A program made the position numbers and the translations under genes. Below the pieces are notes generated by a model. The model searched no databases. It was not told the origin of the DNA and was given only the letters and a program-made list of their open reading frames with translations. DNA of 64,000 nucleotides, taken from IMG/VR virus record IMGVR_UViG_3300031669_000012, positions 21,239-85,238 of that record. One strand, written 5' to 3'. This document shows positions 1,575 through 44,726 of the stretch, piece by piece (positions within the stretch are counted from its first letter, which is position 1; each line of letters opens with the position of its first letter). The DNA is from a virus.

Positions 1575-1595
1575 TAACAAGGTGACACATTTAAT

Positions 1596-1637
1596 AAGCC
1601 CTTCTCTAATGATTTTATTTAGAGTAGGGCTTTTTTA
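1596..1637 (+). terminator. Intrinsic terminator after the abundant virion protein
   Basis: A 14-base stem (1596-1609 with 1619-1632) has one T-T mismatch and a 9-base loop, and is followed by six T residues. It is the strongest terminator on the + strand side. It probably cuts transcript levels between the abundant protein and the downstream appendage genes, with partial read-through feeding the latter. Confidence 0.88.
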
Positions 1638-1655
1638 CTTAAAACAAACACTATT

Positions 1656-25700: not shown

Positions 25701-28700
25701 AACAATATCCTTTAATAACAAATATTCTAAGATACTAAATGATTCAGTTAGTATTACAGAAACTCCTGGTTCAGGAGCAATCATGACTAAGATTGCAAAA
25801 GATACAATATTTCTTTTAGATCTTGCTAACACTGCATTGAAAACATTTAGAAGCACGTCTGAAATAGAAGTTATAAATGTTGATTCTGAAGAACAAGCTT
25901 TATTAAACGATTTGATAAATGCATTTCAACCTTTTCTTGAAAAACCTTCATTGGATATTGAAGACAAAGACCTTCAAGAATGGAAAAACGATGTTACTAC
26001 AAATATAGAAAAATCTTTAAAGATTATACAATCTGCCATAAAATATATTGAATATCTTACAAAGAGTCCTATTAAAACTTTAACATATGATGATGTTCTT
26101 CAGTTAGTATATAACACTGTTCCAACAGATCAATTTCTAAATATAGCTAAAGCATTAAAACAAGTTTTCAATATTATTGAAACTTCTAAATCAAATACTC
26201 AATTATTTAAAACTCTTCCAAACGAGTTTAATAAAATCAATACTGAGGTAAAATATAATGTTGATGATAATGATTTTATAAATACATGGAAAGATAAGAA
26301 TGTTTATAAAGATACTCCTCAAGATATTGATTTTAGGGTTGAACATAAAAATGGAATGTCTGTATATTTGCATGATTTGAAGATACTAGATATTCCAGAA
26401 AATGGTCAAGTATCCGAAGAAGTTGCTAAACTATTATCAGAGTTTTATAGTTTGGTTGAAGGAAGTGAATTAACATTGCAAATTGATAAAAATCATAAGG
26501 ACGATAGATACACAGATAATGAAGCACGAAATGCTGATCCTACAAAAGTTCCAATTTCGATTATAACCAAAGGTGGAATTAGAATTGGATTTACAAATGA
26601 ACAATATACTACTCATAGAAATATAAGTTATTTCAAAGAAAGTAAGAAAGGTAAAAAAACTGTAATGACATATCATTCTTTCATAGATGATCTAACAAAT
26701 AAAGATTATGAATTGCTTGCTAATGATTCAGTTATGGCATTACTAAAAGATGTTTGGAGAAAAGAAGATTATACTAATTATAATAAGTTATCTGAAAGCA
26801 ACGCTTTGAAGCAATTAATTCGTAAGATGGTTTATACAAATAGAATTGATGATAATAAAGAAGTTACAGATGAGCAAGTTAGACATGTAATATCTGCAAT
26901 ATTTTATAGAGTTAGTAATAGAGTTATTCAAGCATATCCTCCAACTCCTAAAATGCTTCAAGAGAAGTATAATGCTTTAAACATTAGAATGAAACAAGAT
27001 TTTCAATTAGTTAAAGAACTTAGAGAGAATTTTGCTAACAATGGAATTGAATCAATGCCTGTAAAGGTTACAAATGTATCAACAGGACAACTTAAGTTTG
27101 GAAATGAATTTAAAAATATTACAGAACAAATTAAACCAATCAATGGTAAAATAACAATTGCACTTAGAGATAAAACTAGAAATGGTAATCCTAATCAATT
27201 GTTCTTAGGTGGCATGGCTAATGAAGGAAGTCCTTTTACAGAAAATAGACCTATTAAAATTGCAAATCAAAAGACAATTGAAATGGATAGTGGGTCTAAA
27301 ATATCTACACACGCAGTAGCATTTGCAATTCTTGAAGCAAATAAAGGGTCTTATTATGCACATCCTATTTATCAATCAACTTTAAATAACAGTCAACATA
27401 CTAAAGATAAAGATTATTCAAAAAAACTTATCAAGTATGTTTCTAAAAATATAGTAGAACTGCTTAATAGCAATGATACAGAAACTAGGAATAAGATTTG
27501 GGGTCAACTAGGAAAATATATTAGACTTTCAAATACTAGAAGTGCTACTGATTTTTCATTTGCATTCTTTTATAAACCTAAAAATACTGGAAAATCAAAT
27601 TTAGTATTCAAAACAGTTGAGAATGTAGGTGGACAATATCTGACTACATTTTATAAAATTGAGAATAATAATGATGGAACATACAATGTATCTTCTACAA
27701 ATGCTTTAAATGCATTAGGAAAACCTAAGTTTCGTAGTGATAGGTTTAAAGTTGTAAATGAATCGGAACTACAATCTGAAATTACAGATCCTGTTTCTAA
27801 ATTACAAAGGTATGTAGGATTTCATAAAGTTAAAGATCAAGTAGGTGTTTCACTAAATCCTGCAGAAGAATTTGTTGATGATGTGACTAACACAAAATAT
27901 ACAGCTACAAAAGATTATACAGCATATGAAAGATTTGTTTTAAATACTGGGGCTTATAATACGAATCTAAAAGCTATTAAACAAGGCACAAATGTAATTA
28001 CATCCTTCTTCCCTAACGGCTCACCTAGTGCTACTTTATTTGTAGAAACAAGTAAAACTACTCCAATTGTAGAAGATAGAATGCCATCGGATAGGACTAC
28101 AACTAAACCAGTAATTGAACCAGAACAAATCGTAAAAGAAACTAAGAAAGCTCCCGAAATTAAATCTATGTCATTTGATGAATTTATATCAAGTCATAGT
28201 GATAGTGTTAAATTTGACAATCTAGCGTTCTTAAAAGATACGTTAAAAGCTTTAGGAATTGATCTTAAGGTTGATTTGAGAATAGGTGAAGAAAAGCAAG
28301 GAGATAATAGTTCAGTTCAAGCAAGTTATGCAAATGGTAAGATTTCAATATTTTCTTCATTTGTTTCTCTAGTTAAGAATGGAGAAGTTGTTTCAAAAAC
28401 TCCTGAAGAAAGAGGATTGATAATAGCACATGAAATATTGCATAGTATTATAAATGAAAAGCTTAAAGCTATGACTCCTGAACAGAGAGTTAAATATAAA
28501 GAAGATGTTGAAACATATCTTAAAGATTTAGAATCAAAACTAGAGAATCCTGCATTGGCAGAAGGTGATAAAGAACTTATAAAAAAATATATTGCTATAT
28601 CTAGAACTGACAGTGATGAAGCATTTACATATGCTTTTGCAAATCGAAATGTAGCAAACATTCTTAATAAAATTGAAGGAGCAACTATTGAAAATAAGAA

Positions 28701-29022
28701 AACAAACTTCTTATTGAAATTAATAAATGTAGTATTGAATGCAATGGGAATAAACAAGAATAGTGAACTAATGACAGTTTACAACATTGCAAATAAATAC
28801 TTTAATATGGAACAACAAGGAGAAGAAATTAAAACAACTACTCCAGAAGAAGTTGCACCAGTAGAACAATCTACTAAAAAGGTCTTTAAAAAACGAAATA
28901 AAGATGCAACTGATGGTAAGATAAATATTGATCCTAATAAGTATTCTAGTGATATAGACTACAATAATTTGGCCGAATTGGTTACAAACTATACCACTGA
29001 AAATGGTTTGCATTTATGTTAA
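22768..29022 (+). CDS. Giant ejection-type polyprotein with C-terminal HExxH metallopeptidase domain
   Basis: A 2084-aa protein in three parts. Residues ~60-410 hold several amphipathic/hydrophobic helices (for example around 165-190 and 383-400) and an Asp-Pro-Arg-Ala-Trp element, like internal virion proteins that cross the host membrane. Residues ~600-1150 are long charged coiled coils rich in Lys/Glu. Residues ~1830-2010 form a zincin: His1888-Glu-Ile-Leu-His1892, with a downstream SDEAFTYAFAN helix giving a likely third Glu ligand. The ATG lies 20 bases inside the upstream gene. It is probably packaged and ejected; the peptidase could process the giant chains or act on host proteins. Substrate unknown. 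Confidence 0.65.
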   Translation: MPITNNNKANMNVPNLGANVPQGVKAGFAIGNNDSKQATTAGMELLAPQPYQVKDFRNYFDNTTPINFFNPDLMEEARARNQNGWALAGNSLAQTIGNDIIGGTVSGFGTLLDPRAWLTFFQSGSKAFEGNALTELGSWIQNETNNAFPIYQTQKTQQGFAPGDKTWWASMFPTVASTASALIPTMAVTKFAKYLGEAVGLAEKFSATGKLASEIIANAVMSRHIDGFQSATQTFQQQYQKYKNLGYTDEKAKEAAGDEASSAYRYSWLNLGFDIIQWKYLLGSKGILAGKIDKATAEAMLEKKLITPSGLSKILVNSEKAPSLTTTLIAEGLSEGFDESTMDFFQKEGIRSSHVIKKDGQDDNSTMPERFLHHMLTDRSTWDSFFWGAFGGLFMTGMHKVGDHFLNGNEEDQKNKRLALIMDRAANIRSNASTLSQYIKNGDTINGEVGVANIVSSILENSIQDGGQHAYNEMLKHMANLTPEEAAELGATPEEIAGAKLIHPEFEKAAKIYDAFHGKNYGEGDRGNLVTGLNVARLSYFSNKLGEIINRIKDDGSRQVELQNLKAKFNLPDDFDVAALADLNSPNHKEELMKAFGDVYKSSYIDGITQRNNIQSHIDEQESHIKMLKAMHEIALHNEEGAKDDIAKEELKRRRKAVETDIKQKTDLVSKYTDKLNETNKGLDEISKSIPKEELEKLENLSQAVDMNEQNTGNRTRIHLENLKAQTDEELNGWLDKDKRKTKLKDIFDEIDTKAAQEEKDIKEKISKASPEELTAFKSQNNGKYDPDVRAREKALEELEKNRTEKLSQLNDRVDALDLSKMNISDSSKLAEAQEEVKKNLKDTMLYNIDSNITDKFFNNAVTKETRLVEEKYNKPEKSTNQSEEIITKTKTSKKSIKAIIEELKEDPSKFNRELERYTKIVDYVNDAMKSPTIPAEEKQLLQEVMNRLNQIKEDMEQVSNLIQRNDMSPEEEKFIAKTISFNNKYSKILNDSVSITETPGSGAIMTKIAKDTIFLLDLANTALKTFRSTSEIEVINVDSEEQALLNDLINAFQPFLEKPSLDIEDKDLQEWKNDVTTNIEKSLKIIQSAIKYIEYLTKSPIKTLTYDDVLQLVYNTVPTDQFLNIAKALKQVFNIIETSKSNTQLFKTLPNEFNKINTEVKYNVDDNDFINTWKDKNVYKDTPQDIDFRVEHKNGMSVYLHDLKILDIPENGQVSEEVAKLLSEFYSLVEGSELTLQIDKNHKDDRYTDNEARNADPTKVPISIITKGGIRIGFTNEQYTTHRNISYFKESKKGKKTVMTYHSFIDDLTNKDYELLANDSVMALLKDVWRKEDYTNYNKLSESNALKQLIRKMVYTNRIDDNKEVTDEQVRHVISAIFYRVSNRVIQAYPPTPKMLQEKYNALNIRMKQDFQLVKELRENFANNGIESMPVKVTNVSTGQLKFGNEFKNITEQIKPINGKITIALRDKTRNGNPNQLFLGGMANEGSPFTENRPIKIANQKTIEMDSGSKISTHAVAFAILEANKGSYYAHPIYQSTLNNSQHTKDKDYSKKLIKYVSKNIVELLNSNDTETRNKIWGQLGKYIRLSNTRSATDFSFAFFYKPKNTGKSNLVFKTVENVGGQYLTTFYKIENNNDGTYNVSSTNALNALGKPKFRSDRFKVVNESELQSEITDPVSKLQRYVGFHKVKDQVGVSLNPAEEFVDDVTNTKYTATKDYTAYERFVLNTGAYNTNLKAIKQGTNVITSFFPNGSPSATLFVETSKTTPIVEDRMPSDRTTTKPVIEPEQIVKETKKAPEIKSMSFDEFISSHSDSVKFDNLAFLKDTLKALGIDLKVDLRIGEEKQGDNSSVQASYANGKISIFSSFVSLVKNGEVVSKTPEERGLIIAHEILHSIINEKLKAMTPEQRVKYKEDVETYLKDLESKLENPALAEGDKELIKKYIAISRTDSDEAFTYAFANRNVANILNKIEGATIENKKTNFLLKLINVVLNAMGINKNSELMTVYNIANKYFNMEQQGEEIKTTTPEEVAPVEQSTKKVFKKRNKDATDGKINIDPNKYSSDIDYNNLAELVTNYTTENGLHLC

Positions 29023-29114: not shown

Positions 29115-32100
29115 ATGAAGTGTGAAATTATACCACAAGTCAGGAATTTACAAGATGAATTAGTAGATAGTAATCTTTTTGCAAATCTTCTCAAATCAAA
29201 TGATAGAGAAACTGCTAAAGAACTATATGCTTATGTTCATTCTCCTAAATTTAAAGAGACTTATGGGGATTGGGAATTGAAGAAAAACATTCAATTAAAT
29301 AGATACACAGACGACGAATCTGCTGTTTTTCTATCTAGATATAATGGTAACTTAGACAATATTAAATTGAAGATTGATATAGATGAGAATGGAGAACCTA
29401 TTTTCAATAATGAAGATTTATCAAATTCTCAACATAATGAGAAAGAAATAAATTCTATATTTGAACAAAATCTAGAATTATCTGATATAGGTTCACAAGA
29501 ACAATATTCTGAATATCTTAATACTATATTTCCTAATAGTAAAGTAAAAGATATTTTATATCATGGGAGTAATACTAGTAATTTAGAAAGTTTAGATCCA
29601 TCTAAAGCTGGAACACTATTACATTCTTCTATGGGTAAAGGGGTCTATATTTCTAATAATAAAAATGTGGCAGATAGGTATAAAGGTAAAATACCGATAT
29701 CTCAAATGAATGAGATATTAAAAAATAACCCAGAATATAAAGGAGACTTTTCTGAATTTGCCGAAGGTCAAACTTATGCATTATTAATAAACGCTGAGAA
29801 TTTAAATACAGACTATACCAAAGTTAATGATCCTAATGTATTTGTATCTTATATAGAACCTATTAATAGTGCTACAGGTAAAACAATGCAATCTGAATAC
29901 ATTGTAAAAGATTCATCTAAAATTCATATATTAGGTTCTAAACAAGACATAAAAGGGTTTAAAGAGTGGATAAAAAATAATATAGATAATACTTCATTTT
30001 TACCTATTTTCAATAATGATGTTAGAGAAGATATTTCTAATAATAATGTTGGATTATCTAAAGAACAAATAGTAAAAGAAAAAGAAGCACAAAGAATATT
30101 AAACTATCTTTCTAAAAAATATATGATAGATGGCGCTTTGACTTCTATGGGAGAATTTAGTAGTTATGGAAGATTTGATAGAACTAGATTAAAAATACTT
30201 ATAAACAGAGATACAACTCTTGATGACTCTGGAAATTTAGGATTTAAAAATTTAAACAATATTAAAAGGTCTTCTATATTTCATGAGTATCTTCATCCAT
30301 TTGTAGAAATACTTGAAAAAGCCAATCCTGAATTATATGAAGAACTACATAAAAGTGCAGAAGTATTAAATAAAGAACAACCTTTTGCTGAGATAAATCA
30401 CTATGATGCAACTCAACAAAAAGAAGAATTGATAGTAAGATATTTAGATAGATTGTCTAAAGATGATGGTGCTCCAACATTACTTCAGAAGTTTATAACT
30501 TGGTTATCATCATTCATACATTCAAAAAGAATCAATGATAAAGAAACATTACAGAATCTATCAAAAGATACAACTGTTGAACAATTGTATAATATTTTTA
30601 AAAATTATGGAAATCTTAAAGATGAAATTACTAAAGTTATAGAGCAAGATTCTTTGAAGAAAGAATTGGAATTAAATAAAAAATTATTGAATATTGCTAT
30701 TGAAGAAAAACTTCCTAATGAAAATATTCAAAATTATAAAGATGAAATAGAAAAATTAGAAAGTTTGATTAATAGATATGATAAATCCAATGTTCAATAC
30801 AAATTGAAGGCTGTAAATATTCTTCAATCAGATGCAGCTAAACAAGTGTTTGCTAAAGGAAATAAAAATGGTTGGGATTTAAATAAGATATTAACTGAAC
30901 TTCAGATACCTAAAGAACAAAAACAATTAGTTATAGATAGTTATAATGAAGGTAATAAAACTCCTGAACAATTAGCTATTGATATTGCTAGTAAATATGG
31001 ATACAATGTTGAAGTTAATACAGCTAAAAATGTAACTAAACAGTTTGGAGCTTTTGAACAAGAACCTGGAATACCAATGGAAGCTATTATGCAATCTAGG
31101 TATTCTACAGAAAGTGAAAAAGGAAATCCAACTTCTTATTATGCAAATCTAACAGTGCCAGGTGGTATTAACTATACCGAGAATGAAATATCTACTCCAT
31201 TAATTACACCAAGTATTAAAGGACATGCTCAATTTGCTACTGATAAGGGTATAGGTTGGTTTAGAAGTGATGAACAAAATTACAAAGGAGAAGCAGATGT
31301 AATATTACCAATAGGAACAAGTGGTAGTGGTAAATCTACATTTATAAAAACCTTACCTCAAGAAAATTTAGTAGTTATAGAACCTGATGTTATGAGAGTA
31401 GAATTTACAGGGGATGTAAATGATAAATCTAAAGATAAAGAAATATATGAAGAAGCTGCTAAAAGAGCTATAACTGCAATTAAGCGAGGTAAACAAGTTG
31501 TATTTGATACCACTAATTTAACAAAAAATAAAAGAACACCTTTCATTAATGCTATTAAAAAGGCTTTACCTACTGCTAATATACAGTATAAGTTAATGGA
31601 GTTAAATCCAGAATTAGCTAAACAAAGAATTAAAGCACAAATAGCAAAAGGTGAAAATAGGGCTAATGTGCCTGATAGCACAATAGATAGACACGCTGAA
31701 TCTTATAAGCAAATGCTTGAAGATATCAAAAGTGAGCCTATTAGTGAATATAAAGATAAACAACCTACTAAAACTCGTAGAATACTAGAACTACAATCTG
31801 ATTTATTTCAGAAAGGTAGAGATAAAAATAAACTTGCTGGTATAGGAGAAGATGAAAGTTTTCTAAAACCCATTAAAGGCACAGAGGATGAACTTGGTAT
31901 CCCTGATTTTGAAAAAGATACAGATTTAATTAGGCAAAACCAATTCCTACAACTACTAAACAAAGACAACAACTGGGTAACATTCTTTATTAAATCTATC
32001 ATTCAAGATAGTGCTAAAAAAGGATATGAGAAGGTATTATTTCCTACAGGTGAAACTGCTGCTAAAGTAGAGGGGCATGAAACTATTGCTAATGAGATAG

Positions 32101-35100
32101 AAAAAAAGAATAAAGAATTAGATAAATGGAATGATACTAGTTATGTAATATCTCATGATTTAGAAGACAAAACTAAATTTGATTGGTGGGATAAAGAAGG
32201 TGATAATATGACCTATCATTATTATAAATTAAATGATAAATATTATAAATCAGGAACATTAATTAGTAAAGATGAATTTGAAAATAAATACAATGAGTTA
32301 TTACAAAATGATAAAGATAAATTTGAAAATAATAAACAAGAAAATATAGATAGAATAACTAAAGAAAAACAAGAACTTAAATCACAAGGAATAGAAAAAC
32401 TTAAACCTATTGAAGCATTCTATGAAATTAAAGTAGGTAATATATTAGAAAAACAATTTGGTAAAGATAATATAAAGACTATTACTGATGAATATGGTAA
32501 TCAATGGCGAGAAATTACTTTAGATAAAAATAGAGATTTAGAAGATATTATGTTTCCAAAAAATAGTGAAGATATTTCATCTAATTCACTTCCTTATACA
32601 CCTGATTATAAATTTCATCAACATGAAATAAATCATACTAATAAATTAATATCTCGTATTGCAATTGATATTCTACCTGAATTAAAGAATCTTAAAGTTG
32701 AAGATTTGGCTAATAATATTTCAGTTAAGAATTCAATTATAAGTGCTCTGCAAACAATTTTAAATAGTAAGATTGACAATAATTCTATTACTAACAGTCA
32801 GTTAGAATTTGTAAATAAAGTAATAGATGATCTTAAAATGAAAGATAGCGAGATTTATAACAATTTCAAATTATATTTCAATTCAAATTACAATATTAAA
32901 ATTAATGATCTTGAAGATCTTACTGATGAAAATGGGAATGTTACAGATGAAATAACTAAGGCTTGGGCAGATGAAGGTCAATTAGAAGAAAATCTTATGG
33001 ATAAAGTTTCTAACTTTATTAAATTTAAGATTGCTAATTTAAGAAATGTTCCATCTGAATTAAGTGGAATCAGTGATGGTGTGGATATAAATGAAATTTG
33101 GAGTGTTCTTCAAACAGTTCATGCGAATGATATTACTCCTGAGGATTATATGGATACTTTAGATGTGATATCTAAATTGAATGAGACACTGATTCCTTTG
33201 AAATCTCTTATCTTAAGTGATGAGATATTTAAGAATGCTTATATTTCAACATTCAAGAAATCTATAAATGAAACTTTTGCTATAACATTTGAAAGCGAAA
33301 ATAAGAAAATTCTTGCTGACTACGCTATTCAAAATAGAAATAGTTTCCCTAGCAATGTATTGTACGATAAGTATCTTTATTCACTTAAATATTTTACTCA
33401 ACATGGCGATACTGCTAAGTTCAATACAATATTGAAACAGATTAAAGATAGAATTAAGAATGATAATAGTAAGATAACTTCATTAGAAGCAAGTCGTTTG
33501 CTTGAAGCAATGGGTATAAATATTCCTGCTATTGGATTAGATATCATAAATGAATACAAACTTAAGTTTTTAAATTCAAATATCGAACAATTAAAATCTA
33601 CAATTGGAGTGGATACTACTCCTGCAGAATTAAATAAAATAAATAAAGACATTGAAGATCTTCAATATCAAAAGGAAAATGCTAGATTCTTAAATATAGC
33701 AAATCCTATTGTAAAACTTGCTGAGAATATTTCAGAAATGATTAAGGATGAAAAAGTTAAATTTGATTCAAGAGGAGATTTAAGAAAAATTGCAACAATA
33801 TCTTCGATTGTAAATAGTCATAAAGGAGATTTCTCATTCCTTGATGTGAATGGTAATAAACGTTTTAGTGTTGATTATCCAAGTTTTATAACTGATATGT
33901 TTAAAGAAGCATCTGCTTCTACACTTGGAATACAACAAGCGTTTGGTAAATATATTGAAATATCTAAAAATAAATATTCAAATTGGTTAGTAAATACTGC
34001 TGGTAAAAATACTCCAAATGGAATATTTAATCTTGATGAAACAGGGCAAATTAATAAATTGAATCCTGTAAATGTATCATTCTTTTCTAATAAGTTTGCA
34101 ATATCATTCTTTAATGGTATTAAGAATCTTACAGAAGAGAAAGGTTCTACTTATGACGAGATGGTTCAAGGTCTTTGGGATTATGCTACAATAGTATCAT
34201 TTTTAACTGGAGATTATAATAGTAAAGGTGAACAAGAAACTGCTTATTACAGAATTCCTTCATCGGATAGTCCTAGAATGCTTACAATTAAAGCTCCTGT
34301 GTTTACTGTTACAGATTTAATAAAATATGATACTAATTTTAAAGTAGTAGGACTTAATAAAGAACATTCTACATTTCAAACATTGAGAAATACAATGCTT
34401 CAGGAATTAGAAGAAGCATATGTTGCGAGAGATGCAATTTACGATCCTATTTTAAAAGATGGTAGAATTATAGGTTTTAAACCTAAAGAATTATATGATG
34501 CATCTAATCCAGAGAATGCTCTTCATACATTACACGATGTTAAACATTGTAAATTAAATGGAGAAGAAATTCAAATATTAGATAATAATAAAATGCCAAT
34601 TGGTAGAGTTTATAAAATGACAAATTTATCTTATAAGGTAGATGGTAAAGAATATACTTTTGAAGATTATCTTAAAGAGAAATATAAAACTTTAAATCTA
34701 CTCACATATAATAATTTTGAAGAAGCTAAAGCATCTTTAAAAACATCTATGGATGAATTTATTGATACAACTATTACTAAACGTATTAATGACAATACTA
34801 ATAATTTTGAATCATTACGAGAAATAATTGGTAACACTTCATTACGTGTTCCCGGTAGGAAAAGAGAAAGTAAATCTATAATTAATTCTGATAAGGATTT
34901 TAATGATATTGTTGCTAAATTTACAGTTAATGATTATTTAGCAATGGTAGAAATAAATAATATGTTTCTTGGTAATAATTCCGAATATGGTTCTTCTGAT
35001 AAATGGAACAAACGTGTTGGACAAGGAATTAAAAAAGGGCAACAATTAAATTCAGATAGACTTTTCAATGCATTAACTGTAAATGATATATTTTACGATA

Positions 35101-38100
35101 GTCCTATCTTCAAACAAATTGAAGAAGTATCTGGTAAAACTGTTGCCAATATGTTTAAACATATCGATGCAAGTGATGCTTTTTCATATATTACAATTGA
35201 AGAATATGAACATCGTTTAAGAGAAGCAGGTATAATTGAATCATACAAACCTATACTTGAAGCATTAAAGAATAGAGATGTTGCTTTCAATCCTGCACTT
35301 TATAATAAGTTTTTAGAATCTTTGAAATTCTTTTATTATGATAGAGATGTAAAAGAACTACCATATAAACAAATGGTTAGTGTTCAGCAAAAGAATTCAA
35401 CTATGGTTCTTGCTCCTGCATTAATAAAGAATACAGATCTTGAAAACTTATATAATGATATGAAATTAAATAATGTTGATCAAATAAACTTTAAATCTGC
35501 TGAAAAAGTAGGTGGAACTGTTCCAGTTGATATATTTAAAAATGGTAAATATGTTCCATTAAGTTCTAGTATTGTTGAACAAGAAGTAATTCCTTCTAAA
35601 GTTAGTGGTTTGAAATTACAATTGGAAGTTAAACCTCATCTTATGGATGAAGTAAATAAACTTGCAATTCAACTTTCTAAATCTATTTTTACAAATGTTC
35701 AACTTGAAAATGAAATTTATAAAATAGGAGACGAAACTGTTTCAGGACAAAAGTTGTTCGATGATTATAATAAGATTCTTGCAACAAATATTAAAGAAAG
35801 TGCTTTAGGACTTTTAAAGAGTTGGGGAGCAGTTCAAAATGGAGAAATTAGAAGTGATGAAAATGGAAATATAATTGTAGATATCACTAAAATATCTAAA
35901 CAACTTCTTCAATATGTAATGAATGAGTCTTTAGATAATAATGCTTTAGCAGCTGTTAAGATGACAGACACAGGTGAATCTGCAATGCCTATTTATGCAC
36001 CAATTCATTATAAGAAATTCTCATCAATTCTATTAAGTAAGATTACTAAAAATATAATTGAACAAAAACTTCCTGGATTTCATAGTCCTATTGTTCCTAA
36101 TGTTTTATTCAATCCTTCTAATGTTTCAAGTGACAGTAAGATGGATATGAAAGAACTGGTTGAAAAAGGACAAATAACTTATTTAAATTCTGTTAAGGAA
36201 GATATAATTGCAGGTAAAAGAACTTCTAATCTTAAATATGAGATAGTTGAAAAAGAAGATGGTAAGCATCTTGAAGTTGAATGTGTTGTTAATCCTTGGG
36301 ATTCTAAGTTCATAAAATATGATGAAAAGCATAATCCGATTGGATATATGGATATTAATGATATTCCTGAAGAGGCGCTTCATTTATTAGGCATTCGTAT
36401 TCCTGTTGAGGGAAAACAATCAATGGTATATTTTAAAGTTGTAGGTTTTCTAAATAGTGGTGCTACTCAAATTGTATTTCCTTCAGAACTTATAACTCAA
36501 ACTGGATGGGATTTTGATATTGATAGTTTGTTCGCTTATACTAAAAATCTTGAGTTCAATAAAGATGGAAAACTTCAAGTTGTAAAATATTCAAATGACA
36601 ATGAAGAATTATTCAATGCTTGGAAAAGAGATAGACTTGCAACTAATCTTGCGTCTCTGACAGATAATGATCGTGCAGAAATACACAATCTTAAAAATAT
36701 TGCTGGGGATATTCGTGAGGGTATGGATAGTATATTTAAAACTGAAATACAATCTCATCATGCAAATCTTGAAGGGATGTTTAAATTTCAGAATGATTAT
36801 ATTGAAACAGTTTTAAATGATCTTAAAGATGAATTTGAAATTGAAAGATCTAGTAAAACTTCTGATCCTGATGCAATGACTATTGATGATACTAAAATTC
36901 ATGATTTGGTAGATCTTAAGAATCAACTTCTTAAATTTGCAGATAATTATGATATCGATGCTAGTTTTGGAAAATATATTGATGGAGTTAGATTGGAAAT
37001 TCAAAACTTCAATAATAAAATCAATAGTGACACTGAAAATATAAAGAAATCTTATGATGATTTAAATAATCTTAAAATAGGAAAACAATCTATAGAAGCT
37101 CGAATTGATAAACTTTATCATAAAATATTTGATAACCTTAGCTTTGAAGAAAAACATACGCTTGCTAGTAGACAAAATAGAATCGTTGATACATTCACTT
37201 CAATTCTTAATAATCCTGCACATCTTGCAGAGAAAATTAAGCCTAATGAAATGCAACATAGTATTAACGCTGCTAATCTTGTAAATGAATTATATCAAAC
37301 TGGTGCAAAAGGACTTAATCCTAACTTCTATGAAGATTATAATCTTTTTAGAAATATCAATATGTCTATTAGAGCACTTAAAGGTAATTCTGTTGGATGG
37401 GATTCTATTATGTCAATTATGGGAGTTCTTGGAGTTAAATTTAGAGAAGGTTCTTCTGTTAAATTTAAACTACATGAAAGTTATCTTCCTAAGAATTTTA
37501 AAATTGAAGATGCTAAATCAAAAGTTTTAAATGTCACTAAGAAAGGTGGATTTTATACATTTGATATAAATACTTTGTTTAACAATGAATCTAAAACTTG
37601 GACAGATATTTTAGATGAAAATATCACAACTCAATATTCTGAAACAACTTCTCATATTTTAGATGCTGTTACAAAACTATTAGGATTCAATCTTAATATT
37701 CATACTTTACCAGTATACAAACTTATATCATCTCTTCCTTTTAATTCTCAATATGAATTTAACGGAGTTAGAGAAAATAATAGATTCGTTGTTCCTAATT
37801 TATTAATTCACCAGCCTATAATATTAGAATATGTTAAAGGAATTATTGATAAAAATATTACAACCAGTGTTAATAAGAAATCGATTCAACAAGATATAAT
37901 GAATGACTACATTGCTAGAATGCTGGTTCAAATGAGACCTATTTTAGACAACGCAGTTGTAAATTTGAAATCGAAATATAATAAAGACACCTATAAATAT
38001 AGTGCTAGTCCAGATGATCTAAGATCTATAATGAAAACTATATATTATAATATAGAGGCTCATGGTGGATATTCTAGTTTTTCAAATGGTATTTTAACAA

Positions 38101-41100
38101 CTAGAGTTGCTACATTACTTCAAGTATATTCTGATTATACTGAACATGAAATAGAATTGGGAACGAATCCTATAATTCCAGATATTGGGGAAATGATACA
38201 AAGTATTAAAGATAGAAGTTCATTTGTAAATGTTATAAATTCGTCATATGTTCCTAAACTTAATTCTGAGCAATCTATAACTGGTAAAGATGTTCAAAGT
38301 ATTGATTTACAACGTGAAGGAATTAAAACTGCATTGATTCAAAGAGATAAACCTAAATATAAAGAAGGTGATAATGTAACGTTTGGAAATGATAATATTA
38401 TATATCATATTGATTCAATGACAAGAACTAGTTTGAGTTCTAAAACTTCAGAAGAAACTTTATCTAAAATTGCTACTGCTGAAGGAACAAATCTTACATT
38501 TTTAAAGAAAAGAGTTGACTCAGGTTCTATGGAAAATGGTGTTTATTTTGTTAAATTCCATAAAACTGATATGACTACAGCAAACAAAGATGCAATAAAT
38601 TATTTAGCAACACAACTTCAAACATTGCACACATATTCCTATTTAGATGGTATTGCTCAAGGTGTGATTGCTTACAGTGCAATATTAAATGCAGATAAAA
38701 AGAAAGTTGGACCAGATACAAGTATTTCTGATCTAAACGAATATAGAATGAGAAATATACTTGTAGATAAAGCTAATCTTAAAGAACATCTTCTTAAAAA
38801 TGGGTATAAAACAAATCAAATAAATGAAATAAATAGAGTATTAGATTCTCTTCCAACTAATGAAATGATTCCTTTTCTTGAAAATGAAGTTGGATATTCT
38901 GCTCCATCAATTCTTACATTGGATGATCATAGTTTAATTGAATCTGTATACGAAGCTTTTAATACTGAAGAATCTAAATATCCTATATTGAATGCATTTT
39001 ATGAAAATGGACAAAGGCTTAGTCAAAAGTTAATGGCTAATCTAAGTATTTATGACAATGATAAATTTAAAGAATTTAAAAATAGCTATTTAGTAGGGAT
39101 TTCAAATAATACTCAATTGACTGACACAAATGAGAGAATAAATAATTTCTTTATAAACTTCATGTTAAGAGATTTAAATCTATTTACATATGATAATGAA
39201 AATTCATTTGAATTAAATAAGGATGTTGCTACAAAACAATTGAGAACTAGAATTAATTCTTTTAATAGTTCGTATGAAGATAATCATAAAACTTTAGAAT
39301 TGACTCCTGAGAATTTTGAAGCATTTCAACAACTAACTCTTTCAAATAAGATTAGATTGATTCAAGACAATCCTGTATATAAAGAGTATTTTAATAATCC
39401 TACATTTGAAAATAATCATATATTGAACGTTTTGAATATTCAAGATGATAAAGATATAATAGAATCTAAAGGTAGAATCTTTATAAAAATTGGTGATACA
39501 AGTGATGCAAATATGACTTCTTTCTCAATGAAAGATATGTATTTTAAAGATCCATTTCTTAGAGATATAGTTACGGATTTAACTAGATATGCTTATTTCA
39601 ATTTTGGATTAAGTTTTGGAAACAATCTTTCTAAATTTATTCCTGTTGAATTACTTACAAATCCTAAATCTAATTTAGGAGAATATGGAGATGCATTGAA
39701 AGGTGTTAAAAGTCAAATATTTTCACAAATGTTTGATCCTGATTTTAAACAACTTCTACACCAATCCAACATAGATAATACAAATATAAATCCAATTGCT
39801 TATAGTCCAACAAAAGTTATTCCGGGTAATGTATATGCTAAATTTAAATTAGTAAAAGCTGCAATTCCTTTAGGAGATACACATCTTATATTTGAAACAA
39901 ATGAAAGCCTTGCATTCCATAATTTAGCAATGAAAGATTATATTGTAAAACTCATTGGAGAAGATAAAGTTCTATTTAAGAAGATGGCAATGAGATTAGA
40001 AAATGGTGATAATCTCTATGTATATTATCCTATTGAAAGTCATGATATGTATGAATTTACTGATGCAGCAAACAATAGGAATAGAAGATATAAAGAAGGA
40101 GCAAGTGAATTTGTTATAGCTCCTGAAGAATTTTATAAAGGAATGCAAGAAATGTATGATCCTTCTGTATTATTGCAAATATACAATGATACAAATAATA
40201 TTAAAGTTGAAACAAATATGGATACCCCTGAAAAGAATTCTGTAGATTTGGAAACTCATAAAGACGAATCTACATCTACATGGAGTAATAAATTTAAAGA
40301 AGAAGGTAGACAAGTATTCTATATCTATAATGAAAATAAAGATTTTTCATTAAATATTCTAAAAAACAGCAATGAAGTAGGGGAGATACGTGCAACAGAT
40401 TATAACGATATTGTTTCTAATTTGAATATTAATAGTAATAAAATTGTATTAAGTTTTGGACAAGACTTTAAAAATAAAGATGCAGCTGTAACAGCAATTG
40501 CTTTTATACATAGTATGTATCCTGAAGTAAATGTAGGAATTTTAAATAACTCAAATTTGACTAGTGAAATAGTTAATGAAAAAGTTAATAGTTTAAACGT
40601 ATTTAATTCTAATACACTTGGAAGATCAATAGAGCAATATAGTGAGGACTTAGGTTTCGATGTATCTACAAAATTAGATATTCATAATGCTAGTGAAACA
40701 ATGCTGGGAATGCTTGAAAACAATCTCAGATTAAAAAATATGTTTCAAAATAGAAAACTTACTTTTGCTAAAGAATTGAATACACTTGATGATAAAATTA
40801 TTAAGAGTAAAATTGGTGAGGAACTCAATAAAGATAATATATCTTCTATATTGGAAGGTATGGATATGGAGATAGGAATATTTACACATATTAATAAAAC
40901 ACTTTCTACAATTGGAAGTGAGTTTAAAGGTATCAATACCGATGAATTATATAAAAAGGGTGAAGAATCTAAAGTTGAATTTGTAAGTAGATTAAAAGAA
41001 GCACAAGCAATAAGTAGTATGTATGATTATATTGATAGACTTGATAAAATATCTTTAAGTAGTGCTAGAGAAGAAGATAGTTCAACTATCGAAATGATAA

Positions 41101-44100
41101 ATAGCAGAATTGCTAAATTGAAGGAGATGAAAGAAGAGAGTGCAAGAGATAGAAAACAAGTTAAAGAAGCTGTAGATACATATCTTGCAACTATAATTTA
41201 TAATACTAGTAGAAATAGTAAATCTTTTAATACTGCTTTTGAAAAGGCAAGAGAAGGAATAGATACAAGCATAACTAAAGAAGAGTTAGCAGAGAATATG
41301 ATAAAGATGTTAAGAAATAATGAAGATATTAGTGGAGCTATGTTATGGTTTGATAGTTCATTTAATACAGGTATCGCAATGGTAGATAATACCATGCTTG
41401 AATATTTTAAATACATGGGTGCTAGAGATGAAATGCGTGATTCAATGATAGATGATGTTAATGAACTTATGAAGAAGTTGACTCCGGGAGTTGAAAATGT
41501 ATTAAGTCATCACAATAAAGCTAAAAGAACTTCAAACTTTACTACTACAATGTTTGATAGTAAAAATGGAACATTGATATCTAAATTTAAATGGGAAGAT
41601 TATAGACAAGCAGAAAGAGAAGCATTGAAAGCATTTTCTGAATCTATGAAAAGAATAGATGCTTTAACTATTGAAAATGATAATCTTCTCAAATCTGTAG
41701 ACCCTATGGAAGAATCTGAAGAAAATACAACAATTAATAAAAGAAGTAGTGATCTTGTTAAACAAATGGAAGTCATAAGAAGAAATGCACAACAGAACCT
41801 TAAAAAGTTTTATAATGAAAATAGAAGTCAAGAATCATTGACAACTGAAGAAGCTACTGAATTAGATTCTCTTCTTGCAAATAATAGTCCTAAAATTGTC
41901 AATAAATGGTTGAACAATCATCATGTTAAAGAATATAAGGGAAAATATTATAAAATTATTCCATCTGATAAATATCTGAATGAAGATTATGCTAAGATGA
42001 AAGATAGTGATAAAGAGATATTGGATGGAATTAAAAATGTTATTGCCAAGATAACAAAGACTTGTTATGGATTTGAAGTTAGTGATGATTTCTTTCCAAT
42101 TAATTTAAGTCAAACTGCTACTAGTGCAATAAAACAAGTTGTTGGATATAGACGAATTTATGAAACTCAAAAAGAATTAGGATTAAACGATGAAGAATAT
42201 TTCAAGCATGAATTCCCAATGTTTAATTATGTTGAGTTTCATCCTATATATAAAATAAGGCCTAGACGAATAGGTGAAGATTTCGAAGAATATGAAGATA
42301 AGGTTGTAAAATCAATTAACTACAAACATAAACTTAAAGGTGAACAAGCCTTTACTTCATTAGAAGAAATACGAACTGCAAATTTAAAGAATTCAGATTT
42401 GAATAAGAGAGATACAGTTGAGAATATGACTGCTGATCCATATGAAGCTTTAAAACTATTCATATATCAGAGTGCTAATTTTAAACATACTGTTGATTTT
42501 GAAACTTTGTTTGGACTTCTTTTAGATAGAGTTAAGAGTGATGATTTCTCAACAACTCAAACAAGAATGAAGGGGACAGGAGTTGTAAATACACTTGGAA
42601 GTTTATTGAAAGGAGAACGAGATTATAAAACTGTAAAAGGACAAGATACAAATGTAGCAAAACGTTTGGAAACATTCTTATCAACTCTTAATGGAGAACA
42701 TAATGTTAGAAATAGAGTTGAACAAGTTTTAGCAATTGCTAAACAATATACTTCTCTCACATACATGTCTTTAAATGTTACAGGTGCTATTAAAAACATA
42801 GGTCAAGGTTATATGAATATAATGCAAGAAGCATTTGCAAAAGAATTTATATCTCATAAAGATATTGGATGGGCAATAAAAAATTATAATATTACAAAGA
42901 TAGTTGCTTCATTAGGTGAAGAATATTCGGATGATATAAATACAGCCATTATGAAACGTTTTGGTAATATGTTGGAGTTGAAAAATGAAAACGGTTTTGA
43001 AACTAATATTGCTGAAAACAATGCTCATAGAATTCTAATGTCTGTAAATGCGATGTATTTTCTTAATAGTGCTGGTGAACATTTTATGCAATTTACTACA
43101 CTACTTGCTGCAATGAGATCACATAGAGTTCTAAATGGAGTATTTGTTAACTTCAATGAATTTTATAATGACAAACGTAAACAAGTTTTAGGAACAATTT
43201 TAAATAAAGAACAGAAAGAATCTTTAGATAAATATCTTGATTATATGAATAAGAATAATCCTAGACATAGTGATAATCCTGACTTCATTGCAAGATGGAT
43301 GACTAATAATAATTTGACAGATGTTCAGAAAACTGAATATATTCAAAAGATTAAAGAAGCTGAAAAAGCTGCAAGAGAAGAATTTGATAAACTTGAAACA
43401 GTATATGATCAATACGAATTGAAAGATGGTAGAGCAGTTATAAAAGAAGGAAGTAAATTTACTGATGATCAATCTGTTATGTTTGAAAGACGTGTTCAAC
43501 AGTTAAATCATAGTATTCATGGTATTTATAATCAAATTGATAGATCTAAATTACGTAATAGCCTTTTAGGAGATATGGCAATGCAATTTAGAGCATGGAT
43601 AAGACCTAACTTTGTTAGATATTTTGGGCAAAGGTGGGGAAGAAGTGTTTATAATGAAGCATTGGGAAGTTTTAGAAAAGGTGCATGGAATAGTATGCAG
43701 GATTTTATAACATCTCCATTTAAAATGGCTAAATACAATAGTAGAGAACTAACAAGTAAACAAGCTTTTGTAAATATTATGAAAGCTTATGGTGAATTCT
43801 TTGCTAATCTTAGATTTAATTATAGAGCAATGAATATTCAAGATAGACAAAATATTCGTAGGAATATGGGTAACTTTATAAATATTGCAATGTCTATTGC
43901 AGGACTTCTATTACTAAATGCATTATCAGATGATGATGAAAAAGACAATCCTTACATGTTGTCATTTGCATTATATGAATTGAATGCTTTATATAATGAA
44001 CATACTGAATTACTACCCGGTATAGGTTGGTATAAAAGTATTATACAAGCTAAACAATATCTTACTCCTAGTGAAAGAATTGTAGATGATACTTTTTCAA

Positions 44101-44312
44101 TTCTATATACTCTTACAACATATCCTTTCTTAAATCCTGAAGATAGAGTTTTCAGTAATGGAATGTATAACGGTGAAGATAAACTTAAAATCGCTATAAT
44201 GAAGAACACTCCTTTGTTTAGACAGTATCATAAGATGATGTATATTCCTTTATATAACAATTGGTATAAAGCCTATAATCCAATTTATATTTCCTCTAGT
44301 AAAAAAAATTAG
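29115..44312 (+). CDS. Giant virion RNA polymerase polyprotein with ADP-ribosyltransferase-like, peptidase and kinase domains
   Basis: A 5065-aa chain. Residues ~43-285 form an ART-PolyVal-like domain: SPKFKETYGDWE, Tyr149-His-Gly-Ser, GVYISNN, SEYIVKDSSKIHILG. Residues ~335-480 form a zincin (His390-Glu-Tyr-Leu-His394, Glu437/438). GHAQFATDKGIGWFRSDE begins at ~703, and a P-loop kinase spans ~728-890 (Walker A Gly734 to Thr742). A further polyvalent-type region at ~892-1150 contains LQSDLFQ and FPTGETAAK. The virion RNA polymerase core lies around residues 2180-3000, with the metal-binding loop Asp2466-Phe-Asp-Ile-Asp2470 preceded by GIRIPVEGKQS. The C-terminal third is helical, with one hydrophobic segment near 4918-4938. 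It ends in TAG before a bidirectional terminator. The polymerase call is firm; the other domains rest on motifs. Confidence 0.85.
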   Translation: MKCEIIPQVRNLQDELVDSNLFANLLKSNDRETAKELYAYVHSPKFKETYGDWELKKNIQLNRYTDDESAVFLSRYNGNLDNIKLKIDIDENGEPIFNNEDLSNSQHNEKEINSIFEQNLELSDIGSQEQYSEYLNTIFPNSKVKDILYHGSNTSNLESLDPSKAGTLLHSSMGKGVYISNNKNVADRYKGKIPISQMNEILKNNPEYKGDFSEFAEGQTYALLINAENLNTDYTKVNDPNVFVSYIEPINSATGKTMQSEYIVKDSSKIHILGSKQDIKGFKEWIKNNIDNTSFLPIFNNDVREDISNNNVGLSKEQIVKEKEAQRILNYLSKKYMIDGALTSMGEFSSYGRFDRTRLKILINRDTTLDDSGNLGFKNLNNIKRSSIFHEYLHPFVEILEKANPELYEELHKSAEVLNKEQPFAEINHYDATQQKEELIVRYLDRLSKDDGAPTLLQKFITWLSSFIHSKRINDKETLQNLSKDTTVEQLYNIFKNYGNLKDEITKVIEQDSLKKELELNKKLLNIAIEEKLPNENIQNYKDEIEKLESLINRYDKSNVQYKLKAVNILQSDAAKQVFAKGNKNGWDLNKILTELQIPKEQKQLVIDSYNEGNKTPEQLAIDIASKYGYNVEVNTAKNVTKQFGAFEQEPGIPMEAIMQSRYSTESEKGNPTSYYANLTVPGGINYTENEISTPLITPSIKGHAQFATDKGIGWFRSDEQNYKGEADVILPIGTSGSGKSTFIKTLPQENLVVIEPDVMRVEFTGDVNDKSKDKEIYEEAAKRAITAIKRGKQVVFDTTNLTKNKRTPFINAIKKALPTANIQYKLMELNPELAKQRIKAQIAKGENRANVPDSTIDRHAESYKQMLEDIKSEPISEYKDKQPTKTRRILELQSDLFQKGRDKNKLAGIGEDESFLKPIKGTEDELGIPDFEKDTDLIRQNQFLQLLNKDNNWVTFFIKSIIQDSAKKGYEKVLFPTGETAAKVEGHETIANEIEKKNKELDKWNDTSYVISHDLEDKTKFDWWDKEGDNMTYHYYKLNDKYYKSGTLISKDEFENKYNELLQNDKDKFENNKQENIDRITKEKQELKSQGIEKLKPIEAFYEIKVGNILEKQFGKDNIKTITDEYGNQWREITLDKNRDLEDIMFPKNSEDISSNSLPYTPDYKFHQHEINHTNKLISRIAIDILPELKNLKVEDLANNISVKNSIISALQTILNSKIDNNSITNSQLEFVNKVIDDLKMKDSEIYNNFKLYFNSNYNIKINDLEDLTDENGNVTDEITKAWADEGQLEENLMDKVSNFIKFKIANLRNVPSELSGISDGVDINEIWSVLQTVHANDITPEDYMDTLDVISKLNETLIPLKSLILSDEIFKNAYISTFKKSINETFAITFESENKKILADYAIQNRNSFPSNVLYDKYLYSLKYFTQHGDTAKFNTILKQIKDRIKNDNSKITSLEASRLLEAMGINIPAIGLDIINEYKLKFLNSNIEQLKSTIGVDTTPAELNKINKDIEDLQYQKENARFLNIANPIVKLAENISEMIKDEKVKFDSRGDLRKIATISSIVNSHKGDFSFLDVNGNKRFSVDYPSFITDMFKEASASTLGIQQAFGKYIEISKNKYSNWLVNTAGKNTPNGIFNLDETGQINKLNPVNVSFFSNKFAISFFNGIKNLTEEKGSTYDEMVQGLWDYATIVSFLTGDYNSKGEQETAYYRIPSSDSPRMLTIKAPVFTVTDLIKYDTNFKVVGLNKEHSTFQTLRNTMLQELEEAYVARDAIYDPILKDGRIIGFKPKELYDASNPENALHTLHDVKHCKLNGEEIQILDNNKMPIGRVYKMTNLSYKVDGKEYTFEDYLKEKYKTLNLLTYNNFEEAKASLKTSMDEFIDTTITKRINDNTNNFESLREIIGNTSLRVPGRKRESKSIINSDKDFNDIVAKFTVNDYLAMVEINNMFLGNNSEYGSSDKWNKRVGQGIKKGQQLNSDRLFNALTVNDIFYDSPIFKQIEEVSGKTVANMFKHIDASDAFSYITIEEYEHRLREAGIIESYKPILEALKNRDVAFNPALYNKFLESLKFFYYDRDVKELPYKQMVSVQQKNSTMVLAPALIKNTDLENLYNDMKLNNVDQINFKSAEKVGGTVPVDIFKNGKYVPLSSSIVEQEVIPSKVSGLKLQLEVKPHLMDEVNKLAIQLSKSIFTNVQLENEIYKIGDETVSGQKLFDDYNKILATNIKESALGLLKSWGAVQNGEIRSDENGNIIVDITKISKQLLQYVMNESLDNNALAAVKMTDTGESAMPIYAPIHYKKFSSILLSKITKNIIEQKLPGFHSPIVPNVLFNPSNVSSDSKMDMKELVEKGQITYLNSVKEDIIAGKRTSNLKYEIVEKEDGKHLEVECVVNPWDSKFIKYDEKHNPIGYMDINDIPEEALHLLGIRIPVEGKQSMVYFKVVGFLNSGATQIVFPSELITQTGWDFDIDSLFAYTKNLEFNKDGKLQVVKYSNDNEELFNAWKRDRLATNLASLTDNDRAEIHNLKNIAGDIREGMDSIFKTEIQSHHANLEGMFKFQNDYIETVLNDLKDEFEIERSSKTSDPDAMTIDDTKIHDLVDLKNQLLKFADNYDIDASFGKYIDGVRLEIQNFNNKINSDTENIKKSYDDLNNLKIGKQSIEARIDKLYHKIFDNLSFEEKHTLASRQNRIVDTFTSILNNPAHLAEKIKPNEMQHSINAANLVNELYQTGAKGLNPNFYEDYNLFRNINMSIRALKGNSVGWDSIMSIMGVLGVKFREGSSVKFKLHESYLPKNFKIEDAKSKVLNVTKKGGFYTFDINTLFNNESKTWTDILDENITTQYSETTSHILDAVTKLLGFNLNIHTLPVYKLISSLPFNSQYEFNGVRENNRFVVPNLLIHQPIILEYVKGIIDKNITTSVNKKSIQQDIMNDYIARMLVQMRPILDNAVVNLKSKYNKDTYKYSASPDDLRSIMKTIYYNIEAHGGYSSFSNGILTTRVATLLQVYSDYTEHEIELGTNPIIPDIGEMIQSIKDRSSFVNVINSSYVPKLNSEQSITGKDVQSIDLQREGIKTALIQRDKPKYKEGDNVTFGNDNIIYHIDSMTRTSLSSKTSEETLSKIATAEGTNLTFLKKRVDSGSMENGVYFVKFHKTDMTTANKDAINYLATQLQTLHTYSYLDGIAQGVIAYSAILNADKKKVGPDTSISDLNEYRMRNILVDKANLKEHLLKNGYKTNQINEINRVLDSLPTNEMIPFLENEVGYSAPSILTLDDHSLIESVYEAFNTEESKYPILNAFYENGQRLSQKLMANLSIYDNDKFKEFKNSYLVGISNNTQLTDTNERINNFFINFMLRDLNLFTYDNENSFELNKDVATKQLRTRINSFNSSYEDNHKTLELTPENFEAFQQLTLSNKIRLIQDNPVYKEYFNNPTFENNHILNVLNIQDDKDIIESKGRIFIKIGDTSDANMTSFSMKDMYFKDPFLRDIVTDLTRYAYFNFGLSFGNNLSKFIPVELLTNPKSNLGEYGDALKGVKSQIFSQMFDPDFKQLLHQSNIDNTNINPIAYSPTKVIPGNVYAKFKLVKAAIPLGDTHLIFETNESLAFHNLAMKDYIVKLIGEDKVLFKKMAMRLENGDNLYVYYPIESHDMYEFTDAANNRNRRYKEGASEFVIAPEEFYKGMQEMYDPSVLLQIYNDTNNIKVETNMDTPEKNSVDLETHKDESTSTWSNKFKEEGRQVFYIYNENKDFSLNILKNSNEVGEIRATDYNDIVSNLNINSNKIVLSFGQDFKNKDAAVTAIAFIHSMYPEVNVGILNNSNLTSEIVNEKVNSLNVFNSNTLGRSIEQYSEDLGFDVSTKLDIHNASETMLGMLENNLRLKNMFQNRKLTFAKELNTLDDKIIKSKIGEELNKDNISSILEGMDMEIGIFTHINKTLSTIGSEFKGINTDELYKKGEESKVEFVSRLKEAQAISSMYDYIDRLDKISLSSAREEDSSTIEMINSRIAKLKEMKEESARDRKQVKEAVDTYLATIIYNTSRNSKSFNTAFEKAREGIDTSITKEELAENMIKMLRNNEDISGAMLWFDSSFNTGIAMVDNTMLEYFKYMGARDEMRDSMIDDVNELMKKLTPGVENVLSHHNKAKRTSNFTTTMFDSKNGTLISKFKWEDYRQAEREALKAFSESMKRIDALTIENDNLLKSVDPMEESEENTTINKRSSDLVKQMEVIRRNAQQNLKKFYNENRSQESLTTEEATELDSLLANNSPKIVNKWLNNHHVKEYKGKYYKIIPSDKYLNEDYAKMKDSDKEILDGIKNVIAKITKTCYGFEVSDDFFPINLSQTATSAIKQVVGYRRIYETQKELGLNDEEYFKHEFPMFNYVEFHPIYKIRPRRIGEDFEEYEDKVVKSINYKHKLKGEQAFTSLEEIRTANLKNSDLNKRDTVENMTADPYEALKLFIYQSANFKHTVDFETLFGLLLDRVKSDDFSTTQTRMKGTGVVNTLGSLLKGERDYKTVKGQDTNVAKRLETFLSTLNGEHNVRNRVEQVLAIAKQYTSLTYMSLNVTGAIKNIGQGYMNIMQEAFAKEFISHKDIGWAIKNYNITKIVASLGEEYSDDINTAIMKRFGNMLELKNENGFETNIAENNAHRILMSVNAMYFLNSAGEHFMQFTTLLAAMRSHRVLNGVFVNFNEFYNDKRKQVLGTILNKEQKESLDKYLDYMNKNNPRHSDNPDFIARWMTNNNLTDVQKTEYIQKIKEAEKAAREEFDKLETVYDQYELKDGRAVIKEGSKFTDDQSVMFERRVQQLNHSIHGIYNQIDRSKLRNSLLGDMAMQFRAWIRPNFVRYFGQRWGRSVYNEALGSFRKGAWNSMQDFITSPFKMAKYNSRELTSKQAFVNIMKAYGEFFANLRFNYRAMNIQDRQNIRRNMGNFINIAMSIAGLLLLNALSDDDEKDNPYMLSFALYELNALYNEHTELLPGIGWYKSIIQAKQYLTPSERIVDDTFSILYTLTTYPFLNPEDRVFSNGMYNGEDKLKIAIMKNTPLFRQYHKMMYIPLYNNWYKAYNPIYISSSKKN

Positions 44313-44371: not shown

Positions 44372-44725
44372 TTAAATAAAGCTTTTCACAATAGCTACAA
44401 AGAAACTATCTTTCAACTGTTGCTCTTTCGGCAACTGAGAATAAGGAAGATAACAAGGATGTTGTTTTTTATCAGGATCTTTTACAGGCCCATATGACCA
44501 TCCATTTTCAGTCTTTTCTTTTAACCAACTATTATGACTATCTTCAGGAGTAGAATCAGGATAATGGAGATGATATCTTACTCCACTCATAGCACTATCT
44601 TTTTGCCATTGAGGAGCATCATTCCAAGAAACTTGACTATTATCTCCAATTGATTCACAATAAACTTTATTAACTTCATGACATGCTTTCGCAATCATCA
44701 ATACTAATAAATTATCAAGTTCCAT
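44372..44725 (-). CDS. RyR-domain protein
   Basis: The start chosen is Met at 44725, one base past the dUTPase stop; a longer frame to 44773 would overlap dUTPase. The 117-aa product is essentially one ryanodine-receptor repeat (RyR) domain: IAKACHEVNKVYCE, then a GDNSQVSWNDAPQWQKDSA element, an HNSWLKEKTENGWSYG element and KKQHPCYLPYSQLP. These His/Trp/Gly positions match the bacterial and phage members. Such proteins are thought to bind small ligands, possibly nucleotide-derived, but no function is proven. As the last gene of the operon beside dUTPase, it may act in nucleotide metabolism or sensing. The family is clear; the role is open. Confidence 0.8.
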   Translation of the reverse strand: MELDNLLVLMIAKACHEVNKVYCESIGDNSQVSWNDAPQWQKDSAMSGVRYHLHYPDSTPEDSHNSWLKEKTENGWSYGPVKDPDKKQHPCYLPYSQLPKEQQLKDSFFVAIVKSFI

Positions 44726-44726
44726 A

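Follow-up and report, generated by a model that had tools for sequence, protein, structure and literature searches.

Terminal cysteines at the seams between virion RNA polymerase subunits suggest a disulfide-tied ejection string in crAss-like phages

How podoviruses push megadalton protein cargo, in order, through a tail of <50 Å is an open question. The window studied here is a stretch of 64,000 nucleotides that spans bases 21239–85238 of the 85,238-base IMG/VR record IMGVR_UViG_3300031669_000012. Positions 29115–44312 (+) form a single ATG frame, without interruption, of 5065 codons, the product of which we call the giant. Its start is backed by homology, as residues 2–46 align with the N-terminus of the third subunit of cr126_1 (58.7% over 46 residues). 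The TerL of the window is closest to that of cr127_1 (Crevaviridae; 39%), followed by those of crAss-like phages, and this crAss-type TerL together with the gene order supports membership of the genome in the order Crassvirales. We find that the giant combines domains in a new way but belongs to a known kind of protein; the surprising part is an order-wide cysteine seam between polymerase subunits.

Three kinds of subunit, classed throughout by profile and not by cysteine, are involved: A (gp47-like), R (the RNA polymerase, RNAP) and T (the third subunit). A sequence-only reading of the window had proposed that one uninterrupted chain of 15.2 kb and 5065 residues would carry a virion RNA polymerase and effector-like domains into the cell in one molecule, and this picture holds for a polymerase of the crAss type. 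The HExxH, P-loop and DFDID motifs lie where that reading put them (HEYLH at residue 390, GTSGSGKS at 734 and DFDID at 2466), and its polymerase core is borne out as well. Used as a lone query, the RNAP segment of the window found no match in the viral contigs or in the PDB; a ten-member profile around DFDID (alignment A1, n = 10, in which D-F-D-x-D is invariant) reached the phi14:2 RNAP (PDB 6VR4, 6vr4_A) with E = 2.5e-37. By homology, R (1161–2910) probably holds two double-psi beta-barrels in a single chain. Residues ~1161–5056 are co-linear with the R-T fusions of cr127_1 (4133 aa), crAss002 (gp33, 4245 aa) and Carjivirus communis (gp44, 4070 aa), from which the first ~1150 residues of the giant are missing. 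The ~2000 helical residues that had been described at the C-terminus are present, but they are not an unassigned tail: they are mostly a third subunit like gp49/g065, as in p-crAssphage and crAss002, and residues 3903–5056 are homologous to the RNAP-associated subunit that about half of the loci encode separately. For A and T, scans against Pfam and PHROG gave no informative match. By homology, then, the giant is a crAss-like virion RNA polymerase with a gp49/g065-like third subunit fused behind it.

We compared this arrangement with 80 IMG/VR loci, picked by polymerase motif and not by cysteine, plus related contigs (about 90 relatives in all; L and G numbers are our handles for them). Four fusion states were seen: all three subunits separate, R-T with a separate A, A-R with a separate T, and A-R-T. 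The size of the giant is not exceptional: 10/80 complete RNAP frames have at least 5000 aa, the largest reaching 7427 aa (G002), and half have at least 4000 aa, so that we rejected giant size as a novelty. A review likewise gives crAss RNAP proteins of up to ~6000 aa (PMC10136315). The 7427-aa frame of G002 (IMGVR_UViG_3300007535_000003) holds A, R, T, a kinase, an ADP-ribosyltransferase (ART), three HExxH motifs and one cysteine, and a leader sequence survives inside it at residue 4853.

Cysteine makes up 0.09% of the residues in R/T chains versus 0.83% in other open reading frames (ORFs), and the few that occur are not spread evenly. N-termini at an internal seam have a cysteine within residues 2–9 in 97/108 cases, almost all of these being at residues 3–5, compared to 0/54 for N-termini that start a string of subunits and 15/122 for control ORFs. 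C-termini show the same: a cysteine falls in the last 9 residues of 84/91 that face a seam, of 0/78 that end a string and of 14/113 controls. The terminal cysteines lie in short conserved leaders (MxC...). Among 108 adjacent junctions, both sides had the cysteine in 83, neither in 19 and one only in 6 (Fisher p 2.6e-15, relatedness ignored). At the 19 junctions lacking it, either a string truly starts or a fusion has been split by a frameshift. Where all three subunits are fused (n = 7), a single cysteine was found in 38,456 residues. Conversely, in five loci (L046, L055, L057, L071 and L085) R is split over two ORFs, the N-terminal part being fused to A and the catalytic part beginning MAC..., and a cysteine pair occurs at the new seam. 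Most mixed junctions have an explanation. The annotated start of crAss002 gp33 (MN917146.1) appears to be 32 codons early, the start by homology and by the seam rule being an internal MSCTPSNPK; in L047/L049, R and T are separated by an additional cargo ORF of 384 aa (13990–15141), which starts MKC and ends NNTCA; and A is not adjacent in L004. Further exceptions were resolved as frameshift-split fusions (L038, L042, L082) or as an undetected A part (G002, L063, L047, L049). The rule read from these sequences is that subunits bear a terminal cysteine at the ends that face a neighbouring subunit, and that none is present at the ends of a string or at a fused joint. In the window, the only cysteine of A is its last residue (2084), the giant begins M-K-C (Cys3), and there is no cysteine at its C-terminus.

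The pattern was also followed on an 84-row RNAP tree (INDEPENDENCE). The fused or separate state of A and R (seam 1) changed at least 11 times and matches the cysteine state in 70/70 scored rows; this scoring omits truncated rows, three loci split by frameshifts and four rows in which the class of A was uncertain, and it uses one corrected start. Nine independent supported pairs are all concordant (p = 0.004). For R and T (seam 2), at least 7 changes were counted, and the match is 73/76.

Cultured phages follow the same pattern. The 5398 residues of phi14:2 g067, g066 and g065 hold four cysteines, at 1797/1797, at 3 and 2179/2180, and at 3, respectively. In crAss001, gp47 has Cys2339 of 2341 (ending ...RCNS); gp50 has Cys5, Cys2404 of 2412 and one internal cysteine (MSKRC... 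to ...NNDKICGANTLYEL); and gp49 has only Cys5 (MAKKC...). In crAss001 and cr106_1, A is encoded at a distance from R and on the other strand, and it still ends in cysteine, which makes the cysteine a property of the proteins and not of gene borders. This excludes an artefact of gene junctions or translational coupling, against which it also counts that string ends lack the cysteine, that its position shifts by a few residues and that TGT and TGC are both used. Inteins or protein splicing at the seams were rejected too, as there is no intein domain between adjacent chains and the cysteine is not residue 1.

Additional genes sit at some seams. Small ferritin-like genes are found exactly at cargo seams in L046, L055, L057, L071 and L085 (gap ~9270–9750), in L094 (12998–13486) and in G004 (gap 3377–3871); Pfam Ferritin matches two of them (3e-12 in L046, 4e-15 in L094), the rest being assigned by sequence similarity only. 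A gene of ~525–730 aa, starting with a KVxAEGxExILRxxxG-like motif, occupies the R-T seam of L025 (15615–17804), L098 (14615–16705) and L089 (15714–17288).

Why two separate chains should require both cysteines, and a fused chain neither, is most simply explained by a covalent link between the two ends. From sequence, the pattern indicates that selection favours subunits that stay together, at the least up to entry. In such a mechanism, the seam cysteines of neighbouring subunits would pair as an inter-subunit disulfide in the virion. Subunits made separately would then leave through the narrow tail as a single covalently joined thread, led by the N-terminus, and would be released once the bonds are reduced in the cytoplasm of the host; a gene fusion would make the link permanent. 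Tying several giant unfolded chains in this way would make their ejection processive and ordered. For the window phage, the predicted bond would join A Cys2084 to giant Cys3, giving a string of 7149 residues. Related observations exist for crAss001, whose virions contain gp47, gp49 and gp50 by mass spectrometry (MS) and whose tail shows resolved disulfides; its cargo was proposed to pass constrictions of <50 Å partly unfolded, and gp45 to leave N-terminus first (PMC10172136). Homologues of phi14:2 g065–g067 have been detected by MS in virions (PMC10172136; record notes). We consider it probable that the early-transcription machine of the window phage, R-T with its injected enzymes, is tied to A as a disulfide-linked A-R-T ejection string. 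We also lean towards the broader proposal that, across the Crassvirales, one disulfide per seam stitches separate subunits into a thread that passes as a continuous polypeptide and is reduced in the cytoplasm, with fusions of up to 7427 residues replacing the stitches.

The strongest alternative, which we nevertheless regard as unlikely, is that the terminal cysteines do not pair with each other and instead bind a common virion partner (the portal or the C1 protein), mediate homodimerisation or belong to an N-terminal packaging tag. Their placement in short conserved leaders is tag-like, and the seam pairing is itself deduced from sequence. Fusion, however, should leave a tag or partner site either still required or harmless, yet both cysteines vanish exactly at the fused seam; string ends never carry one, and the pair appears where R is newly split. 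Less probable still is that the giant is a pro-protein, cut at domain borders before or after ejection by its own HExxH peptidase or that of A, with the seam cysteines incidental. Subunit A of the window carries HEILH at residue 1888, near its C-terminal part, so that both string members have an HExxH motif, and P1 DdrB is processed before packaging (PMC5512222). Set against this, an HExxH is missing from the chain in 16/24 R-T and 4/7 A-R-T fusions, an N4 virion RNAP with a zincin is packaged unprocessed (PMC5512222), and the cysteine rule is left unexplained. The earlier suggestion that the chain is cut apart after ejection thus gains no support from these fusions, although a protease may act in trans, and the zincin as an obligate self-cleavage enzyme is not supported by the same counts. 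Least credible of all, an ordinary giant crAss polymerase with a neutral, functionless N-terminal fusion and a cysteine pattern due to shared ancestry in a cysteine-poor family would agree with giant multidomain RNAPs being a known crAss-like hallmark (PMC7886860, PMC10136315) and with cysteine-free N4-like virion RNAPs (PMC3715699, PMC3915230), but R chains only 20–33% identical changed their fused or split state repeatedly at both seams and the cysteines followed, while the kinase in the N-terminal module kept its P-loop and DTTN motifs, and its copies across phages are mostly 75–88% identical to that of the window.

Several points weigh against the disulfide string. At seam 2, only 4–5/6 independent supported pairs are concordant (none opposed), and p values of 0.06–0.13 fall short of significance. 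We infer cysteine pairing from terminal position and co-loss. The cytoplasm in which virions assemble is reducing, so that the bonds could form only in the particle or once the cell had lysed. Internal cysteines in some chains, three of them in the giant, could mispair. R in L025, L089 and L098 has no cysteine in its last 9 residues, and we count these three loci, all with another gene inserted at the seam, as exceptions to the rule; T of L025 and L098 still begins with cysteine despite the cysteine-less R end. As for the injected enzymes, the ART and zincin activities of the giant are putative, assigned by family.

The enzymes that precede R were assigned as follows. The ART-PolyVal family of Pfam (PF18760) matches 11/15 aligned homologues, at best with 1.1e-18; the window sequence alone scores 0.018, below the cut-off. 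Foldseek with a model of the region gave tankyrase and RES toxins as best matches, at a weak E of 0.13; both are ART folds. The HExxH region has HEYLH and a conserved downstream Glu (alignment A2), with a predicted structure of low confidence; an MPTase-PolyVal match was seen in one relative only (0.052), and several relatives have EExxH. EExxH replaces HExxH in T or R chains of L076, L097, L059 and L032 (EEMLH, EEAMH, EEASH), which suggests that these members of the domain family are dead or altered peptidases. The further polyvalent region of the sequence-only reading is real: this 'GWFRSD...QSDLFQ' domain has homologues in at least eight other loci, and the kinase is nested within it. In contig G007 the domain lacks the kinase and has a short loop at that site. 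Modules with ART or HExxH recur before R in L050, L090, L093 and L097 and before T in L076. The N-terminal set (putative ART and metallopeptidase domains and a polynucleotide-kinase-type domain) is modular and exchanged between phages. Upon entry, as R begins early transcription, it would be directed against defences or other targets in the host. ART domains fused to N4-type virion RNAPs have been read as Alt-like or defence-countering (PMC5512222); by analogy with these fusions and with T4 Alt, a role of this kind would be a reasonable inference here.

The kinase had been called toxin-like. That it is a kinase stands; the toxin label does not, as it resembles polynucleotide kinases more closely than zeta toxins. 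AAA_33 matches with 4.2e-18, compared to 5.4e-5 for Zeta_toxin, just above the cut-off, and the fold comparison proposed earlier yielded the polynucleotide kinase of C. thermocellum (Foldseek 4gp6, E 2.3e-6, probability 1.0). The GSGKST, D..R and D.TN motifs are present in an alignment with 4jst. Among seven contigs, the kinase proteins are 74–94% identical and the polymerases mostly 20–33%. At fourfold-degenerate sites, agreement is about 0.5–0.8 for the kinase and about 0.45 for the polymerase, base composition predicting about 0.4. The kinase lies before R (window, G001, G005), after R (G002), in the T chain (G003, G004) or inside R (G006). In this last case (L011/G006, a 2691-aa ORF, residues 1459–1747), it sits in the polymerase ~45 residues past DFDID and is itself split by ~140 residues. 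A kinase far more alike than the polymerases, at varied sites, must have moved between loci after the polymerases diverged; by these comparisons it is a recently mobile domain among crAss-like phages.

Known systems share parts of this arrangement. phi14:2 gp66/g066 (6VR4), with g067 and g065, has the same RNAP family, A-R-T gene order and seam cysteines as the window; it differs in having three separate proteins, the polymerase (about 2200 residues by the sequence-only reading) being the 2180-aa g066, and no ART/kinase module before R. The R-T fusions p-crAssphage gp44, crAss002 gp33 and cr127_1 gp_26485 (4070–4245 aa), like the window, follow an A with a C-terminal cysteine, but are ~1000 residues shorter and lack the N-terminal polyvalent module; the first two are labelled 'RNAP catalytic subunit fused to unknown RNAP subunit'. 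N4-like virion RNAPs (about 3400–3500 aa) are also giant and injected, and some are fused to ART and zincin (PMC3715699, PMC3915230, PMC5512222); unlike the giant, they are T7-type single-subunit enzymes of unrelated fold, each one chain and hence with no seams. Their reported freedom from cysteine was ascribed to easier tail passage (PMC3715699, PMC3915230). Polyvalent proteins combine ART-PolyVal and MPTase-type domains in one phage-delivered chain, as the giant does (Iyer et al. 2017, PMC5512222), although those fusions are to N4-type polymerases, and the text names neither crAss phages nor the nested kinase. The P23-45 virion RNAP (5002 aa, PMC10770324) is likewise a two-barrel enzyme within a giant chain; P23-45 is, however, a siphovirus with the RNAP fused to the tail tape measure, and no effector module or cysteine seam is reported. 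We found no report of seam cysteines in the literature searched, which excluded the primary phi14:2 Nature paper, leaving their novelty uncertain.

Table 1. Cargo genes of the window and parts of the giant (window coordinates)
Feature	Position	Strand	Remarks
710-aa protein, C1-like (crAss002 gp30; crAss001 'putative transmembrane' type)	18012..20144	+	0 Cys; weak BLASTP to cr127_1/crAss002/Carjivirus neighbours, best 1e-8
876-aa protein, C2 cargo position	20157..22787	+	0 Cys; synteny with crAss002 gp31
Subunit A, 2084 aa, gp47-like (phi14:2 g067, p-crAssphage gp45)	22768..29022	+	BLASTP to cr127_1 2509-aa protein, 8e-31
Codon of A Cys2084, C-terminal seam cysteine	29017..29019	+	
5065-aa giant: polyvalent module, RNAP (R) and third subunit (T)	29115..44312	+	
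N-terminal leader, residues 1–53	29115..29273	+	Common to Steigviridae third subunits
Codon of giant Cys3, N-terminal seam cysteine	29121..29123	+	
Putative ART-PolyVal-type ADP-ribosyltransferase domain, residues ~140–290	29532..29984	+	
Putative zincin-like metallopeptidase, residues ~325–480	30087..30554	+	HEYLH 390–394 at 30282–30296; motif, profile to relatives, alignment A2
Polyvalent 'GWFRSD...QSDLFQ' domain, residues ~556–1150	30780..32564	+	Split by kinase
Nested polynucleotide-kinase-type P-loop kinase, residues 723–885	31281..31769	+	
Virion RNA polymerase R, probably two-barrel, residues ~1161–2910	32595..37844	+	DFDID at 36510–36524
Connecting region, residues ~2911–3902	37845..40820	+	In part homologous to cr127_1
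Third subunit T (gp49/g065-like), C-terminal fusion, residues 3903–5056	40821..44282	+	No C-terminal Cys

Convergent after the giant, 44372–44773 (–) encodes a 133-aa protein with a RyR domain (1.4e-11), adjoined by a dUTPase.

crAss-like phages are among the commonest human-gut viruses, and the seam rule offers a simple mechanism for delivery of their cargo, in which head-to-tail ties between polymerase subunits would let the leading one draw in its successor. The rule would account for the frequent recurrence of subunit fusions and for the avoidance of cysteine within the chains, and the cross-linked peptides that it predicts are exact and may already show up in available virion mass-spectrometry data. 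With their mobile kinase and ART modules, the injected strings would double as a platform for swapping early-acting effectors.
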